From: Deltaproteobacteria bacterium | GTDB lineage: Bacteria; Myxococcota_A; Polyangia; Polyangiales; Houyiibacteriaceae | NCBI GenBank assembly: GCA_013151775.1 | Contig: JAADHO010000016.1 | Span: forward strand, 1 to 33,871 | Direction of reading: 5' to 3' | Length of the DNA stretch: 33,871 nt | Shown: positions 1 to 25,278 of the stretch, one piece after another | Numbering within the stretch: position 1 is the stretch's first letter | How the letters are laid out: each line of letters begins with the position of its first letter | The notes under the pieces: generated by a model | The model's database searches: none | What the model saw: only the letters and a program-made list of their open reading frames with translations | What the model was told of the DNA's origin: nothing | Position numbers and translations under genes: made by a program

Positions 1-91
1 CGCGGTCGCCATGGAGGAGCAGCAGCGCTTCGCCATTCGCGAGGGCGGACGCACCGTCGGCGCGGGCGTCATCACCAAGATCATCGAGTAG
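1..91 (+). CDS. tuf: Elongation factor Tu, C-terminal end (partial)
   Basis: The first 91 bases hold the last 29 complete codons of EF-Tu, the GTPase that brings aminoacyl-tRNA to the ribosome. The residues match the end of domain 3, including the [15 protein letters not shown] stretch that is nearly invariant in bacterial EF-Tu, and end in KIIE before TAG at 89-91. The rest of the gene lies upstream of the window. It stands 10 nt before rpsJ, the usual fusA-tuf-rpsJ arrangement. A second tuf copy elsewhere is common but cannot be seen here. Confidence 0.95.
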
Positions 92-101
92 GAGAGACAC
101 C

Positions 102-413
102 ATGGCATCCTCGACCAGGATTCGAATCCGCCTCAAGGCCTATGATCACCGCCTCTTGGACCAGTCCACGGGCGAAATCGTGGAGACGGCCAAGCGCACG
201 GGCGCACAGGTGGCGGGTCCCATTCCGCTCCCCACGCGCATCAACAAATACACCGTTCTACGTGGACCCCACGTGGACAAGAAGTCACGCGAGCAGTTCG
301 AGATTCGCACTCATAAGCGTCTCCTCGACATCCTCGAACCCACTCAAGAGACTCTCGACGCTCTGATGAAGCTGGACCTATCAGCTGGTGTCGACGTCGA
401 GATCAAGTCCTGA
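102..413 (+). CDS. rpsJ: 30S ribosomal protein S10
   Basis: S10 is a small-subunit head protein that also acts with NusB in antitermination. The 103-residue product has the standard family length and the conserved [16 protein letters not shown] start, the [18 protein letters not shown] loop and the [11 protein letters not shown] segment near its end. The ATG follows a GGAGAG ribosome-binding site. In almost all bacteria the next gene would be rplC (L3), but here rplD starts only 45 nt later. No internal damage is visible in S10 itself. Confidence 0.98.
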
Positions 414-458
414 CTTCCTGACCACATTCCCCTGAGTATAGGCTAAATCGGAGAACAC

Positions 459-1136
459 ATGCCGAAGGTCAAGGTATACGACCTGGATCGAAATGACGTT
501 GGAGAGCTTGAGCTCTCTGACCAGATTTTCGACGTCAAGGTCAACGAAGCGCTCTTCTACGACGTGCTAAAGGCGCAGCTCGCCTCACGTCGCAGCGGCT
601 CGGCCAAGGTGAAGAACCGCGCAGAGGTGCGGGGCTCCTCCCGGAAGGTCTACCGCCAGAAGGGCACGGGCAACGCGCGCCACGGCAACATCCGTGCGCC
701 GATCTACGTGGGTGGCGGACAGGCTCATGGCCCCAAGCCGAGGAGCTACGCGTATAGGCCGCCTCGCAAAATGCGCGCCGGAGCGCTGCGCAGCGCCCTC
801 TCCATGAAGCTCAAGGAAGGGCGTCTGCTGATCCTCGATGCGTTCGAGATGCCAGAGATCAAGACCCGCAAGCTCGAGCGTGTGCTCGAGACGCTCGAGG
901 TCGACTCCGGTGCGGTCATCGTGGACGCGGTGGACAACCAAACTCTTCGCCTCTCGGCGCGGAACATGAATGGCCACCTCTTCCTTCCACCCGAGGGCGT
1001 CAACCTCTACGACCTCCTCCGGCACGAACACCTGATCCTCACAAAGAAGGCTGTCGCCGCGCTAGAGCAGCGTCTTCAGCAGAGCTCCGCTCGACTTTCC
1101 AGTAAAGCTCCGCACGACGTTGCGCAGGCCGAGTAG
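459..1136 (+). CDS. rplD: 50S ribosomal protein L4
   Basis: L4 binds 23S rRNA and reaches into the peptide exit tunnel. The 225-residue product carries the family signature around residues 55-105: the RGSSRKVYRQKGTGNARHG tunnel loop and the GGGQAHGPKPRSY segment. It is a little longer than E. coli L4 (201 residues) because of a polar C-terminal tail after about residue 205. The ATG has a GGAGA site 5 nt upstream. It follows rpsJ directly, so rplC, which normally stands between them, is missing at this place. Confidence 0.97.
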   Translation: MPKVKVYDLDRNDVGELELSDQIFDVKVNEALFYDVLKAQLASRRSGSAKVKNRAEVRGSSRKVYRQKGTGNARHGNIRAPIYVGGGQAHGPKPRSYAYRPPRKMRAGALRSALSMKLKEGRLLILDAFEMPEIKTRKLERVLETLEVDSGAVIVDAVDNQTLRLSARNMNGHLFLPPEGVNLYDLLRHEHLILTKKAVAALEQRLQQSSARLSSKAPHDVAQAE

Positions 1137-1145
1137 GGAAAGACC

Positions 1146-1436
1146 ATGCAACTCGAACAAATCATCAAGCGCCCGCTGATTCTCACCGAGAAGGGGAGCA
1201 TCCTCCGAGAAGACGAGAATCAGTATCTCTTCGAGGTCGATCGTGGGGCAAACAAGATCGAAATCCGTGACGCCATCGAACGACTCTTCAACGTCAAGGT
1301 AACCGGCGTCAACACCCTGCTGATGCGCGGCAAGATGCGCCGCATGGGGCGCGGATACGCCAAGACCCGTAACTGGAAGAAGGCGTTCGTCACCCTCGCC
1401 AAGGGTGACACCATCGACTTCTTCGAAGGAGCCTAG
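1146..1436 (+). CDS. rplW: 50S ribosomal protein L23
   Basis: L23 sits at the exit of the peptide tunnel and is a docking site for trigger factor and SRP. The 96-residue product has the usual length. It shows the N-terminal [11 protein letters not shown] motif, the [22 protein letters not shown] core and the basic loop [20 protein letters not shown]. It starts 9 nt after rplD and ends 3 nt before rplB, in canonical order. Confidence 0.97.
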
Positions 1437-1439
1437 AAG

Positions 1440-2267
1440 ATGGCGATCAAGCGATTCAAGCCGACTTCTCCCTCGCGCCGCTTCTACGAGGCGTCCGACT
1501 TCGCAGGCATCTCCAAGAAGAAGCCCGAGAAGGCACTGACCGAGGCCAAGTCTTCCACCGGTGGCCGAAACAACAACGGGCGCATCACGGTGCGCTTCCG
1601 TGGAGGCGGCCACAAGCGCCGCTACCGCAAGATCGACTTCAAGCGCCACAAGACGGGCGTCCCGGCCACAGTCGCTGCGCTCGAGTACGATCCGAACCGC
1701 TCCGCACGCATCGCGCTGCTCCACTACGCGGACGGCGAGAAGGCCTACATCCTCGCTCCCGACGGACTCGCCGTGGGCGACACGGTGCTCTCCTCACGCC
1801 ACGCCGACGTAAAACCCGGCAACTCCTTGACCCTGCGCTACATGCCCCTAGGCACTCTCGTACACAACATCGAGATGAAGATCGGCAAGGGCGGTCAACT
1901 GGTGCGCTCCGCCGGGACCGCGGCTCAGTTGATGGCGAAGGATGGTAACTACGCGCAGCTGAGGCTGCCCTCGACCGAAGTGCGGATGATCCATCTGGAT
2001 TGTCGCGCCACCGTTGGACAGGTGAGCAACAAGCAGCACGCTCGCATCACCCTCGGCAAGGCGGGGCGCAGCCGTTGGCTCGGTCGTCGGCCTCACAACC
2101 GCGGCACCACCATGAACCCGGTCGACCACCCCATGGGCGGCGGCGAGGGTAGGACCGCCGGTGGACGTCATCCTTGTTCTCCGTGGGGTCAACTCGCGAA
2201 GGGCAAAAAGACCCGGAAGAACAAGGCGAGCGATAAGTTCATCGTCAGGAAGCGGAAGAAGAAGTAA
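1440..2267 (+). CDS. rplB: 50S ribosomal protein L2
   Basis: L2 is a primary 23S rRNA-binding protein near the peptidyl-transferase centre. The 275-residue product is full length. It contains the N-terminal [16 protein letters not shown] motif and the C-terminal [18 protein letters not shown] loop. The first histidine of that loop, the one implicated in E. coli activity, is present. The second, often His, is Met, a variant also seen in other bacterial groups. The stop shares one base with the rpsS start (TAATG), implying translational coupling. Confidence 0.98.
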
Positions 2268-2569
2268 TGGCACGTTCGATCAAGAAGGGTCCCTTCGTCG
2301 ACGACCACCTTCAGAAGAAGGTTGAGGCCGTACAGCGCTCGGGCGAACGCAAGATGATCAAGACCTGGTCACGCAGGTCCACCATCACCCCGGACTTCAT
2401 CGGCCTGACCTTTGCGGTCCACAACGGCCGGAAGTTCGTCACCGTGTTCGTCACAGAGAACATGGTCGGCCACAAGCTGGGCGAATTCGCACCAACGCGG
2501 ACCTTTCATGGTCACGCGGCGGACCGTAAGAGCAGGAAGGGCGGCAACCCGAGGACGGGTAAGCGCTGA
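2267..2569 (+). CDS. rpsS: 30S ribosomal protein S19
   Basis: S19 is a head protein of the small subunit that pairs with S13. The 100-residue product begins [15 protein letters not shown] and contains the conserved [31 protein letters not shown] and TRTFHGH segments. Length is close to the family norm of about 92. The ATG overlaps the rplB stop by one base. An 82-nt spacer to rplV follows, which is long for this operon. Confidence 0.98.
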
Positions 2570-2651
2570 CGAGTTGTCCGGGGACAGGCGGCGTGCTAGA
2601 TCGCCGGCCCCCGAGCAGGCTAGATCATAGAGTCACGGCCACAGGGAAGAC
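2570..2651 (+). other. Unusually long spacer rpsS-rplV with an imperfect hairpin
   Basis: Most junctions in this operon are 0-20 nt, but this one is 82 nt. It can fold into an imperfect stem at 2579-2613 (CGGGG and GGCG pairing with CGCC and CCCCG), and GCTAGATC occurs twice (from about 2594 and 2619). There is no U-tract, so a terminator is unlikely. Autoregulation, processing, or plain drift are all possible. The function is unknown. Confidence 0.35.
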
Positions 2652-3002
2652 ATGGAAGCCATCGCAAAAGCACGATTTCAAAGGATTTCTCCACGCAAGG
2701 CGCGGACGATCCTCAACATGGTGCGCGGCAAGAACGTCGCGGTCGCCCTCAACGAGCTGCGCTTCACCAAGAAGGCGGCCTCGCCTCTGGTGGCGAAGGT
2801 TCTCGACAGCGCCATCGCCAACGCCAAGAACCTGGATGAGAGCGTCAACCTCGACAATCTCTACGTCCAGACGGCGTTCGCGGACAAAGCACCGAATAGT
2901 CAGATGCGTCGCTGGAGGCCTCGTGCCATGGGTCGCGCAACACAAATCGTGAAGGGCATGAGCCACATCACGATCATCGTATCCGACCAGGAAGAGGTCT
3001 GA
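2652..3002 (+). CDS. rplV: 50S ribosomal protein L22
   Basis: L22 lines the peptide exit tunnel opposite L4. The 116-residue product has the usual length. It shows the conserved N-terminal [16 protein letters not shown] segment, the [27 protein letters not shown] helix region and the C-terminal beta-hairpin ending in HITIIVSD. A weak GGGAAG site precedes the ATG. The stop lies 1 nt before the rpsC GTG start. Confidence 0.97.
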
Positions 3003-3003
3003 A

Positions 3004-3660
3004 GTGGGTCAAAAGACACACCCCTATGGTTTTCGCCTCGGCATCATCAAGACTTGGAAATCCAAGTGGTATGAGGACAAGAACTACGCCACTTGGCTTC
3101 ACGAAGATCTCTCGTTGAAGCGCATGATCACCAAGAAGCACGCCCACGCTGGAATCGCAGATATCCGGATTGAGCGTGCCGCCAACAAGGCGAAGGTGGT
3201 GATCTACACGTCCCGTCCCGGGATCATCATCGGCAAGCGCGGTGCCGGCGTCGAGCAGCTCAAGAAGGAGCTGCAGGGCCTGACGAAGAACGAGCTCTTC
3301 GTGGACATCCAGGAGATTCGCAAGGCGGAGACGAACGCCAAGCTCGTCGCCGAGAACATCGCCTCTCAGCTCGAACGTCGCGTGGCCTTCAGGCGCGCCA
3401 TGAAGAAGGCGGTTTCGACCGCCATGAAGTTCGGCGTCAAGGGCATCCGCGTCAACGCCGCGGGGCGTCTCGGTGGCGTCGCCATCGCCCGACGCGAATG
3501 GTACCACGAGGGCCGCGTCCCGCTCCACACGCTACGCGCCGACATCGACTACGGCGAAGTCACAGCAAAGACAAAGGCCGGTACGGTCGGAATCAAATGC
3601 TGGATCTTCAAGGGCGAGATCGTCCCCCAACGCCGACGCTCCGGCGCTGCTCGCAGCTGA
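3004..3660 (+). CDS. rpsC: 30S ribosomal protein S3
   Basis: S3 forms part of the mRNA entry channel. The 218-residue product starts with GTG and the standard [13 protein letters not shown] sequence. It carries the KH-domain motif [20 protein letters not shown] around residues 71-90 and the C-terminal [23 protein letters not shown] region with the usual [13 protein letters not shown]. The reading frame is intact, so the damage in rplP begins only after this gene. It starts 1 nt after the rplV stop. Confidence 0.97.
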
Positions 3661-3684
3661 AACCTCTAGAACCGATAATTCACC

Positions 3685-4096
3685 ATGCTTCAACCCAAAC
3701 GAACCAAGTTCAACAAGCAGCAGAAGGGCCGCATGCGCGGGAAGGCCTACCGTGGGAGCAAGGTCTCCTTACTTCGGCCTGCAGGCCATCGAGGGCGGGC
3801 GCGTCTCGGCGCGCCAGATCGAAGCTGCTCGTATGGCTATCCAGCGGAAGGTGAAGCGCCAAGGAAAGCTCTTCATCCGCATTTTCCCGGACAAGCCCAT
3901 CACCAAGAAGCCCCTCGAGACCAGGCAGGGTAAGGGCAAGGGCCCGATCGAAGGTTGGGTCGCTATCGTTCGACCGGGGCGCATGCTCTACGAGATCCAG
4001 GGAGTAGCCGAGGAGCTGGCGCGCGAGGCCTTCCGGATCGCCGGCCACAAGCTGCCCTTGCCCACCCAGTTCCGCCGTCGGGAGGATCAGCTGTGA
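3685..4096 (+). CDS. rplP: 50S ribosomal protein L16, interrupted by a frameshift
   Basis: L16 organises the A-site region of the large subunit and is normally essential. The frame opened by the ATG at 3685 reads the classic start [16 protein letters not shown] and on to GSKVS (TCC at 3766-3768), then becomes nonsense and ends at 3933. The other two-thirds of L16, from [20 protein letters not shown] to RRREDQL, continues from TTC at 3773 in the +1 frame to TGA at 4096. Relatives have three codons between S and FGL, but only four bases (TTAC) are present. So about five bases are missing or, less likely, one base is skipped in translation. A sequence or assembly error is the simplest reading. 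A true pseudogene would need an intact copy elsewhere. Confidence 0.9.
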
Positions 4097-19113: not shown

Positions 19114-20808
19114 ATGACGCCCCGAGTCATCCTTTCGATCGAGATGCCCGACGGGCAGGTCGAACAGCTCCCCTTGGAGGAGTCGTGGCCCGCTGTGATC
19201 GGACGTGATCCCAGCTGTCACGTGGTTCTGCCCTCTCCCGAGGTGAGCCGACGCCACCTGGCTGTGGAGCGTCGCCCACAGGGTTTCAAGGTGACGGACC
19301 AGAGCGCGAACGGCACTCTGATCGGCGACCAGCGCGTGAAGCAGAGCGCGGTGCGCATCCCGCCCGGCGTGCCCATGCGCGTGGGCCCCTACGTGCTTCG
19401 GCTCTACGATCCTGCCTTGGCGGCGGTTCCGCCCAAGGGACCCGAGGCACCCGCGGCGCCCGCAAAGCCCGCGCCGAAGCCGGTCGATCGCAAGTCGCGC
19501 CCACCGTCTGAGCAGCTCTCGCTCTCGGGAGGAACGGCGGATGTCAGCGTCGAGCTGCGCCGTCGTGTCCACCGGATGCTGCTCGACTATCTCGATCTCG
19601 CGACCCTCGACCGGTCGCAGATGGACGATCGCTCCATGCGCCCGAAGGTGCACAAGGCGCTCGATCGCATCTTCAGCCAGCTCGCCGCGGACATCCCGCC
19701 AAGCACGGATCTCCAAGCCTTCAGAGGAGAGATGACGGACGAGGCGTTGGGCCTCGGACCATTGGAGAAGCTGCTTGCAGACGACGCTGTCAGTGAGATC
19801 ATGGTGATCGATCCCGAGAACATCTACGTCGAGCGCAACGGCAAGCTCTCGCATACGGACCTGCGCTTCACGGACGACGAGTCAGCACGTGCAGTCATCG
19901 AGCGCATCGTCACACCCCTCGGTCGGCGCATCGATGAGAGCACACCGCTGGTCGACGCGCGCCTCAAGGACGGCTCACGCGTGAACGCCGTGATCAAGCC
20001 GTTGGCCATCAACGGCGCCTGCATCACCATCCGCAAGTTCCAGAAGAACCCCCTCACCATCGACAAGCTCGTCAGCTTTGGTGCCATGACGCGGCAGATG
20101 GCCACCTTCCTCGATCGCTCCGTTCGCGTTCGCAAGAACATCGTGATCTCCGGAGGCACGGGCTCGGGCAAGACGACTCTGCTGAACGTGCTCTCGAGCT
20201 CGATCCCCGATCACGAACGCGTCATCACCATCGAGGACGCGGCCGAACTGCGCCTCGAGCAGCCGCACGTCGTGTCTCTCGAGACTCGCCCCGCCAACAT
20301 GGAGGGCAAGGGCGAATACTCGATCCGCGACCTGGTCAAGAACGCCCTGCGCATGCGTCCAGACCGCATCGTGGTCGGAGAGTGTCGCGGTGGCGAAGCC
20401 CTCGACATGTTGCAGGCCATGAACACGGGCCACGAGGGCTCCATGACCACGACCCACGCCAACAGCCCGCCCGAGGCGGTGAAACGTCTGGAGACCCTGT
20501 GCTTGATGTCGGGCATCGAGCTGCCCTCGCGCGCCATTCGCGAGCAGATCTCCGGGAGCATTCATCTGATCGTTCAGCAGTCACGCTTTAGTGACGGGTC
20601 GCGTCGCATCACGCGCATCACCGAGCTCGATGGTTTGGACGAGAACCTCGAGTTTCGGCTCCACGATATCTTCGCCTACTATCGCACCGGGACCGATGCG
20701 AAGGGCAAGATCGTCGGCGAGTTTCGGGCGAGCGGTTATCTCCCCTCGTTCCTCGACGAGTTCATCACCAACGGCTTGGTCGACGCCGATGGTGGGGAGT
20801 ATTTGTGA
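19114..20808 (+). CDS. cpaF: FHA-CpaF fusion: Tad pilus secretion ATPase with N-terminal phosphothreonine-binding domain
   Basis: CpaF/TadA is the hexameric cytosolic ATPase that powers Flp assembly. The 564-residue product starts with a complete FHA domain (about 1-100) bearing the phosphothreonine-binding signature: G30-R31, S45 and H48 in SRRH, and N66-G67. An Ala/Pro/Lys-rich linker (about 101-135) leads to the ATPase, with Walker A GGTGSGKT (347-354), the acidic IEDAAELRLEQPHVV box, Walker B DRIVVGECRGGEA (417-429) and the His box TTTHANSP (about 445-452). FHA fusion suggests control by Ser/Thr kinase signalling, an inference. The tadB GTG overlaps its stop by 4 nt. Confidence 0.95.
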   Translation: MTPRVILSIEMPDGQVEQLPLEESWPAVIGRDPSCHVVLPSPEVSRRHLAVERRPQGFKVTDQSANGTLIGDQRVKQSAVRIPPGVPMRVGPYVLRLYDPALAAVPPKGPEAPAAPAKPAPKPVDRKSRPPSEQLSLSGGTADVSVELRRRVHRMLLDYLDLATLDRSQMDDRSMRPKVHKALDRIFSQLAADIPPSTDLQAFRGEMTDEALGLGPLEKLLADDAVSEIMVIDPENIYVERNGKLSHTDLRFTDDESARAVIERIVTPLGRRIDESTPLVDARLKDGSRVNAVIKPLAINGACITIRKFQKNPLTIDKLVSFGAMTRQMATFLDRSVRVRKNIVISGGTGSGKTTLLNVLSSSIPDHERVITIEDAAELRLEQPHVVSLETRPANMEGKGEYSIRDLVKNALRMRPDRIVVGECRGGEALDMLQAMNTGHEGSMTTTHANSPPEAVKRLETLCLMSGIELPSRAIREQISGSIHLIVQQSRFSDGSRRITRITELDGLDENLEFRLHDIFAYYRTGTDAKGKIVGEFRASGYLPSFLDEFITNGLVDADGGEYL

Positions 20809-23450: not shown

Positions 23451-24169
23451 GTGTTCGCGGCTCGGCACGGACGGAGGCAGCTCTTCGATCCCAGCGGGTA
23501 TTGCTCAGCGCCCTCTTCGCGCTGCTCGGAGTCGTAGGCTGTGGAGGGATCGGGGCTGGGGACCAGGCCAGGATACCGGACCCTCTCGCGGACGTTCCGG
23601 CGCGAGATCTCTTCGCGCGCGGGCGCGTGTTGGTCGTGCATGGAGATTCCATCCGGGCCGAGCAGTACCTCACAGCGGCCATGGACCGCGGCTACCCCGA
23701 GCAAGAGGCCATGCCCTTGCTGATCCGCGCCTGCGTGTCGTCCTCGCGCTTGAGCTCCGCCTTGGGCTACGCAGAGCCCTACCTGCGTCGACATCCCAGA
23801 GATTGGTCCTTGCGCTTCTTGGTGGCGACGCTGCAACAAGGTCTGGGTCGCACCGAGCGCGCGCGCGCGAATCTCGAGCAGGTCATCGTAGACGCTCCGG
23901 AGGCGCCCGAGCCCGAGTTCGTCCTGGCCATGTTGCTGCGCGACGATCTCTCTCTCGACGACGAGGCGAGACCTCTGCTCGAGCGCTATCTCGAGCTGGC
24001 TCCCCGAGGTCGCCACGCCGCCGAAGTGCGCGCCGCTCTGGCTCCCTCGCTCGTTCGCGTGCACGCCCCGGTGGAGATTCGACGAGACCATCCGTCCGAC
24101 GGGGACACACCGAGCGAGTCTCCCATTCCCTCCATCGCGCCTGCCGCAGATTCTGGAGTTCAACCGTGA
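23447..24169 (+). CDS. TPR-like lipoprotein, possibly TadD-type
   Basis: GTG 23447 overlaps the preceding stop (GTGA) and gives 240 residues. A lipoprotein signal ends in the lipobox GVVGC with the modified cysteine at about residue 32. The rest is helical and repeat-like: DLFARGRVLVVHGDSIRAEQYLTAAMDRG, then SALGYAEPYLRRHPRDWSLRFLVATLQQGLGRTERARANLEQVI, and so on, the pattern of TPR units. TadD lipoproteins in Tad loci have this architecture and help pilotin-like assembly. Identity with TadD is inferred. Confidence 0.75.
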   Translation: MSVRGSARTEAALRSQRVLLSALFALLGVVGCGGIGAGDQARIPDPLADVPARDLFARGRVLVVHGDSIRAEQYLTAAMDRGYPEQEAMPLLIRACVSSSRLSSALGYAEPYLRRHPRDWSLRFLVATLQQGLGRTERARANLEQVIVDAPEAPEPEFVLAMLLRDDLSLDDEARPLLERYLELAPRGRHAAEVRAALAPSLVRVHAPVEIRRDHPSDGDTPSESPIPSIAPAADSGVQP

Positions 24170-25278
24170 TCCCGAAGGAAGTCTTCGAGCAGACCATCCT
24201 GAAATTCTTCGATCCCATTCGACCCTATCTCGACGATCCCAGCGTGAGCGAGGTGATGATCAACGGTCCTAAGGAGATCTACATCGAGCAGAAGGGTCGG
24301 CTGCACAAGACGCCGGCGGAGTTTCCCTCGCAGGAGGCGCTGATGAGCGCTCTGCGCAACTTGGCTCAGTTCGTCGGGCGGCGGCTCAGCGAGGAGCACC
24401 CGATCCTCGAGGCGCGTTTCCCCGACGGATCACGCGTCGAGGCCGTGATCCCGCCTGCCTCTCCAGACGGCCCCTCCGTGTCCATTCGACGCTTCTCCAA
24501 AGACACGCTGACGATTCAGAAGCTGCTCTCCTTCGGTTCCATGACCCAGGACGCTGCCTCCGTGCTCGAAGCCCTCGTCGCCTGCAAGCAGAACGTGATC
24601 GTGGCGGGAGGCACGGGCTCAGGCAAGACCTCTCTACTCAACTGTCTCTCCTCCTTCATCCCTGACGATCAGCGCATTGTCGTGATCGAGGACGCTCGCG
24701 AGCTGCAGCTTCAGCTGCCTCACGTCGTACAGATGGAAGCGCAGCCTCCAGATCCGCGCGGCAAGGGTCAGGTCACCATCCGCGATCTCTTCAAGGCCAC
24801 CTTGCGCATGCGGCCCGATCGAATCGTCGTGGGCGAGATCCGCGGCGGTGAGGCCCTCGAGCTGATTCAGGCCATGACGTCGGGTCACGGCGGCTGTCTC
24901 TCCACGGTCCACGCCACCTACCCCATCGACACCCTGAACCGGCTCGAGACCATGGCCATGATGAGTGACGTGGAGATCCCCCTCGAGGCCATGCGCGCTC
25001 AGATCGCCTCGGCCATCGATATGATCGTCCAGACCTCGCGTCTGCTCGACGGATCCCGTTGCGTCACCCACATCACGGAGGTGTTGGGCTACGATCTCAC
25101 CGATGGCTATCAGCTTGGGGACGTCTTCATCCGCCGCTATCTGGGTCGGGACGAGTCCGGCGCCGTGCTGAGTGAGTTCGTACCCACGGGTCGCTTGCCG
25201 GGCTGTCTCGAGATGATTCGTGCCTTGGGGCTGGAGCTTCCAGCCAGTGTATATCAAGCTGCTCAAGCACAGGCCTGA
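24166..25278 (+). CDS. cpaF: Second CpaF/TadA-type secretion ATPase
   Basis: GTG 24166 overlaps the previous stop (GTGA) and gives a 370-residue CpaF without an FHA domain. The open frame extends upstream to 23803 but overlaps the lipoprotein gene, so it is rejected. Motifs present are DDPSVSEVMINGPKEIYIEQKG, Walker A GGTGSGKT (148-155), VIEDARELQLQLPHVVQ, Walker B DRIVVGEIRGGEALE and the His box STVHATYP. It is complete and appears active. It is clearly diverged from the first CpaF 3.4 kb upstream, so it is not a recent copy. Two such ATPases in one operon is notable. Confidence 0.94.
   Translation: MIPKEVFEQTILKFFDPIRPYLDDPSVSEVMINGPKEIYIEQKGRLHKTPAEFPSQEALMSALRNLAQFVGRRLSEEHPILEARFPDGSRVEAVIPPASPDGPSVSIRRFSKDTLTIQKLLSFGSMTQDAASVLEALVACKQNVIVAGGTGSGKTSLLNCLSSFIPDDQRIVVIEDARELQLQLPHVVQMEAQPPDPRGKGQVTIRDLFKATLRMRPDRIVVGEIRGGEALELIQAMTSGHGGCLSTVHATYPIDTLNRLETMAMMSDVEIPLEAMRAQIASAIDMIVQTSRLLDGSRCVTHITEVLGYDLTDGYQLGDVFIRRYLGRDESGAVLSEFVPTGRLPGCLEMIRALGLELPASVYQAAQAQA

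Follow-up and report, generated by a model that had tools for sequence, protein, structure and literature searches.

In this genome of the order Polyangiales, the gene for ribosomal protein L3, rplC, has very probably been moved out of the S10 operon in an old event, leaving rpsJ and rplD directly joined and L3 retained at another site under a putative promoter of its own that is of the rRNA type. Few bacterial gene orders are conserved as strongly as the start of the S10 operon, which serves as a reference for phylogenetics and for models of ribosome assembly. The canonical operon reads rpsJ-rplC-rplD-rplW-rplB-rpsS-rplV-rpsC-rplP-rpmC-rpsQ. The other members read here keep the same order and lie directly after tuf, whereas rplC is missing and just 45 nt connect rpsJ to rplD.

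The window (33,871 nt) is an entire contig, C82, whose start falls within tuf. Its first features are the following.

1-91, forward strand: tuf (EF-Tu), 3′ end only, truncated by the contig boundary; frame from base 2, 29 residues, stop codon at 89-91
102-413, forward strand: rpsJ, ribosomal protein S10, full length by TIGR01049 and PF00338; stop TGA
414-458, forward strand: rpsJ-rplD junction, 45 nt without an open gene, the place of rplC in most other bacteria (direct reading)
450-453, forward strand: GGAG ribosome-binding site of rplD (direct reading)
459-1136, forward strand: rplD, ribosomal protein L4, by TIGR03953 and PF00573; start ATG

An earlier note on this DNA had reported that rplC is absent from its conserved place and that only 45 nt separate the rpsJ stop from the rplD start, and the ends read at 413 and 459 agree with it on both points. 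The same note described the junction as natural in appearance, with a good ribosome-binding site for rplD; the GGAG at 450-453 bears this out, and the junction is common to the relatives in the order, closed chromosomes included. Past the junction, rpsJ, rplD, rplW, rplB, rpsS, rplV, rpsC and rplP (frameshifted) follow each other on one strand in canonical order at 102-4096, and the remainder of the S10-spc-alpha cluster continues in order between 102 and 14111 (reading of the ORF list, with rpmJ outside the reading). A search of positions 1-1500 of the window for promoter-like sites returned none. Because EF-Tu genes often occur in duplicate, a break of the contig inside tuf would be expected; in about a dozen relatives the contigs likewise start about 380-510 nt 5′ of rplD.

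Two further features of the window are recorded here in their own right. The rplP gene (L16, 3685-4096) is split over two frames, with a break at about 3769, where 1 nt stands against 9 nt in relatives, an 8-nt deletion. It is the sole L16 gene of the assembly, so the break probably reflects either an error in the sequence or a mutation of the strain. Farther along, two genes for CpaF-like secretion ATPases (19114-20808 and 23803-25278) lie in one region of Tad/Flp pilus type, as read from ORF translations.

A whole-genome search for L3, which the earlier note had proposed, gives a single match to PF00297 in the assembly (460 contigs, about 6 Mb). This match lies on contig C358 and none falls in the window, in accordance with the note's statement that no L3-like sequence occurs elsewhere in it. 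The features of the new site are as follows.

C358:308-344: candidate sigma-70-type promoter of rplC, TTGACG-N16-TACTAT followed by GCGCAGCCC; the -10 box ends 27 nt before the start codon
C358:363-1037: rplC, ribosomal protein L3, 224 aa, intact, the sole L3 gene of the genome

The encoded protein (C358:363-1034) aligns with positions 1-202 of the 202 of TIGR03625 at 229.6 bits (cut-off 142.9) and also exceeds the cut-off of PF00297; it is a full-length bacterial uL3. A true loss of L3 is rejected, since the genome has the gene in intact form. Upstream of rplC is a gene for a TPR protein, and rlmE starts 18 nt 3′ of rplC, followed by tatD and by a HEAT-repeat gene on the other strand. The rlmE product belongs to the FtsJ family (PF01728, above the cut-off) and is a homologue of the 23S rRNA U2552 methyltransferase; the RlmE equivalog models cover most of its length with scores below their cut-offs. 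Since only 18 nt separate rplC and rlmE, the two genes are probably co-transcribed. A sister genome of the same genus carries the corresponding rplC-rlmE-tatD block, with L3 87% identical, which argues that C358 is not a stray contaminant.

The candidate promoter is a conserved element. TTGAC-N17-TANNNT occurs upstream of rplC in 34 of 38 loci of the order, against about 0.1 in shuffles, and the boxes are mostly followed by a GC-rich stretch, in 28 of the 38 by a strict GC-discriminator pattern. Many of these loci come from one genus and they are thus not independent; the motif is also present in seven of ten order loci from other families, and in none of 11 loci from outside the order. At rplC of this genome the sequence conforms to an rRNA-type sigma-70 promoter (TTGACN-N16-18-TANNNT with a GC-rich discriminator). 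The exact motif with GCRGCCC has four matches in the 6-Mb genome, and a reversed-pattern control has none. Besides the site before rplC, these are:

C105:963-1000: before rpsP (S16)
C353:11624-11660: before a DUF1844 gene
C382:13878-13914: about 480 nt upstream of a 16S rRNA gene

Judging from this motif, the DUF1844 protein may share its regulation with translation genes. A GC-rich discriminator is a usual feature of rRNA and ribosomal-protein promoters under stringent control. Given this, and because the motif is shared with rpsP and with the region upstream of a 16S rRNA gene, we infer that rplC has an active promoter of its own, growth-rate controlled in the manner of rRNA promoters. A conserved RNA leader as the upstream element of rplC is rejected: neither the rplC loci nor the window gave an Rfam match, and the conserved element looks like a promoter.

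Within the order, the arrangement is uniform. The earlier note had also suggested comparing the junction in relatives, and in all 44 order genomes in which it could be read, from ten families, rpsJ runs straight to rplD without rplC, with a gap of 13-80 nt between aligned ends. Its recurrence in 44 genomes excludes both chance and error. In the order genomes searched for both genes, rplC and rplD lie far apart or on different contigs without exception; one example is a single contig of 10,327,335 bases (G044), in which they stand at 4.92 and 9.06 Mb, 4.1 Mb apart. Many of the assemblies used are fragmented MAGs. At its new site rplC of the order usually adjoins rlmE and has a putative promoter of its own. 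As a separate observation, the S10 operon is broken again after rpsS in several families of the order: at seven loci (L086-L090, L093 and L095) rplV and rpsC were not found behind rpsS in the fetched stretch of 1.5 to over 4 kb, and at L094 they come after a 1.8-kb insertion.

The pattern extends well beyond the order. A sample of 142 genomes of the phylum yielded rplC in 140 and rplD in 136, and the two genes adjoin in one genome only (G060). Among the other pairs that share a contig, the smallest distance is 13 kb, and in two closed chromosomes (G064 and G135) the genes are megabases apart. In a scan of named genomes, rplC adjoins rplD in 65 of the 65 loci taken, from their record titles, to lie outside the phylum. 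The order genomes and nearly all of the phylum sample thus share the relocation while outside loci are canonical, and the relocation is therefore old and inherited, and spans practically all of the phylum as sampled (Polyangia, Bradymonas-like and other classes); the absence of rplC from the window is not an oddity of one genome. G060 has a normal rpsJ-rplC-rplD-rplW-rplB run, and a further locus, Myxococcota by its NCBI label (L131), has the canonical rpsJ-rplC-rplD order. These two may represent the state that preceded the move. The G060 assembly carries 6% contamination. Two records titled as Klebsiella pneumoniae MAG (L137 and L142) have an rplC context typical of this myxobacterial phylum, so their titles look wrong.

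The L3 tree is in step with taxonomy at the levels of order (support 100/98) and class (98/90), which points to vertical inheritance within the class, and its deeper branches are weak. Immediately 3′ of rplC stands rlmE in 31 of the 69 rplC loci examined, and the pair is found in two separate clades of the tree, that of the class of this genome and a second one of other classes. Clades without rlmE have rplC in other contexts, for example adjoining CoA-transferase and guaB genes. As the rplC-rlmE pair recurs in two clades across several classes, the distribution favours a shared new site beside rlmE, with later changes in other lineages. Forcing all relocated L3s into one clade costs 2.15 log-likelihood units, and such a clade is not rejected (p-AU 0.405), a result that does not prove one origin.

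The weakness of the deep branches also leaves room for rplC having moved more than once, independently in different classes of the phylum. Its gene contexts number at least three (rlmE; CoA-transferase and guaB; a Bradymonas-type one), and both G060 and the NCBI-labelled locus keep the canonical order. However, the rplC-rlmE pair is common to two clades, a single clade of relocated L3s is not rejected, and a single departure with later moves is the simpler account; independent moves are thus considered rather unlikely. A second alternative is replacement, in which a foreign rplC was gained elsewhere and the copy in the S10 operon was then lost. An old foreign origin draws its plausibility from the failure of the L3 tree to resolve the phylum as one clade and from the unrelated genes around rplC in some lineages, but within order and class the tree follows taxonomy with strong support, joining all relocated L3s has the small cost given above, and no donor group is nested among them with support, all of which makes replacement improbable.

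The earlier note had left the choice between a moved gene and an assembly gap of about 0.6 kb, and the gap, in which rplC would have been dropped between rpsJ and rplD, can be dismissed: errors near the end of a contig that begins within tuf are conceivable in a 460-contig genome, and rplP on the same contig does carry its 8-nt deletion, but the junction recurs in 44 separately assembled genomes of the order, the sole rplC stands intact on a different contig, where its neighbours are those conserved in the sister genome, closed chromosomes have the genes megabases apart, and a finding that, according to the note, would indicate a deletion, a relative with rplC between rpsJ and rplD, occurs in no relative of the order and in the phylum sample only in G060.

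The preferred reading is thus a relocation, for which the following course is proposed. Very probably rplC left the S10 operon, and rpsJ and rplD have stayed directly joined. Now ahead of rlmE, rplC would be transcribed on its own together with that gene, and the stoichiometry of L3 would be held by a growth-rate-responsive promoter of rRNA type instead of by membership in the S10 operon.

Dispersal of ribosomal protein genes is already known. Borrelia and Treponema have dispersed ribosomal operons, with several S10-spc-alpha genes elsewhere (PMC2481283). As in these genera, ribosomal protein genes exit the cluster and persist elsewhere; unlike in them, the start of the S10 operon has lost a single internal gene, rplC, nearly phylum-wide. 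Such an exit of rplC is unexpected, though ordinary rearrangement of genomes could account for it. The principal survey of these clusters is reportedly that of Coenye and Vandamme from 2005. The limited literature that could be searched contained no report that rplC had left the operon, whether in myxobacteria or across a phylum. In Myxococcus xanthus, tuf is MXAN_3298 (PMC9601211) and rpsS is MXAN_3303 (PMC10313047), leaving four locus tags between them as compared with the five usual genes rpsJ, rplC, rplD, rplW and rplB. Since four tags span the place of five genes, this indirect count of locus tags fits an absence of rplC from the S10 region there too; the phylum sample is without a Myxococcus-type genome (MglA at most 85% identical to that of M. 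xanthus).

A stable and near-phylum-wide exception of this kind shows that co-transcription with S10 and L4 is dispensable for L3. As a rare event, the move of rplC can mark branches within the phylum, and it allows a natural test of how ribosomal proteins are balanced outside a shared operon. Tentatively, and with less confidence than the relocation itself commands, one ancestor of most of the phylum may have freed uL3 on a single occasion, moved it next to rlmE and coupled its dosage to the synthesis of rRNA by way of an rRNA-type promoter. If this is true, control of a ribosomal protein of early assembly would go with rRNA, no longer with the genes that once shared its operon.
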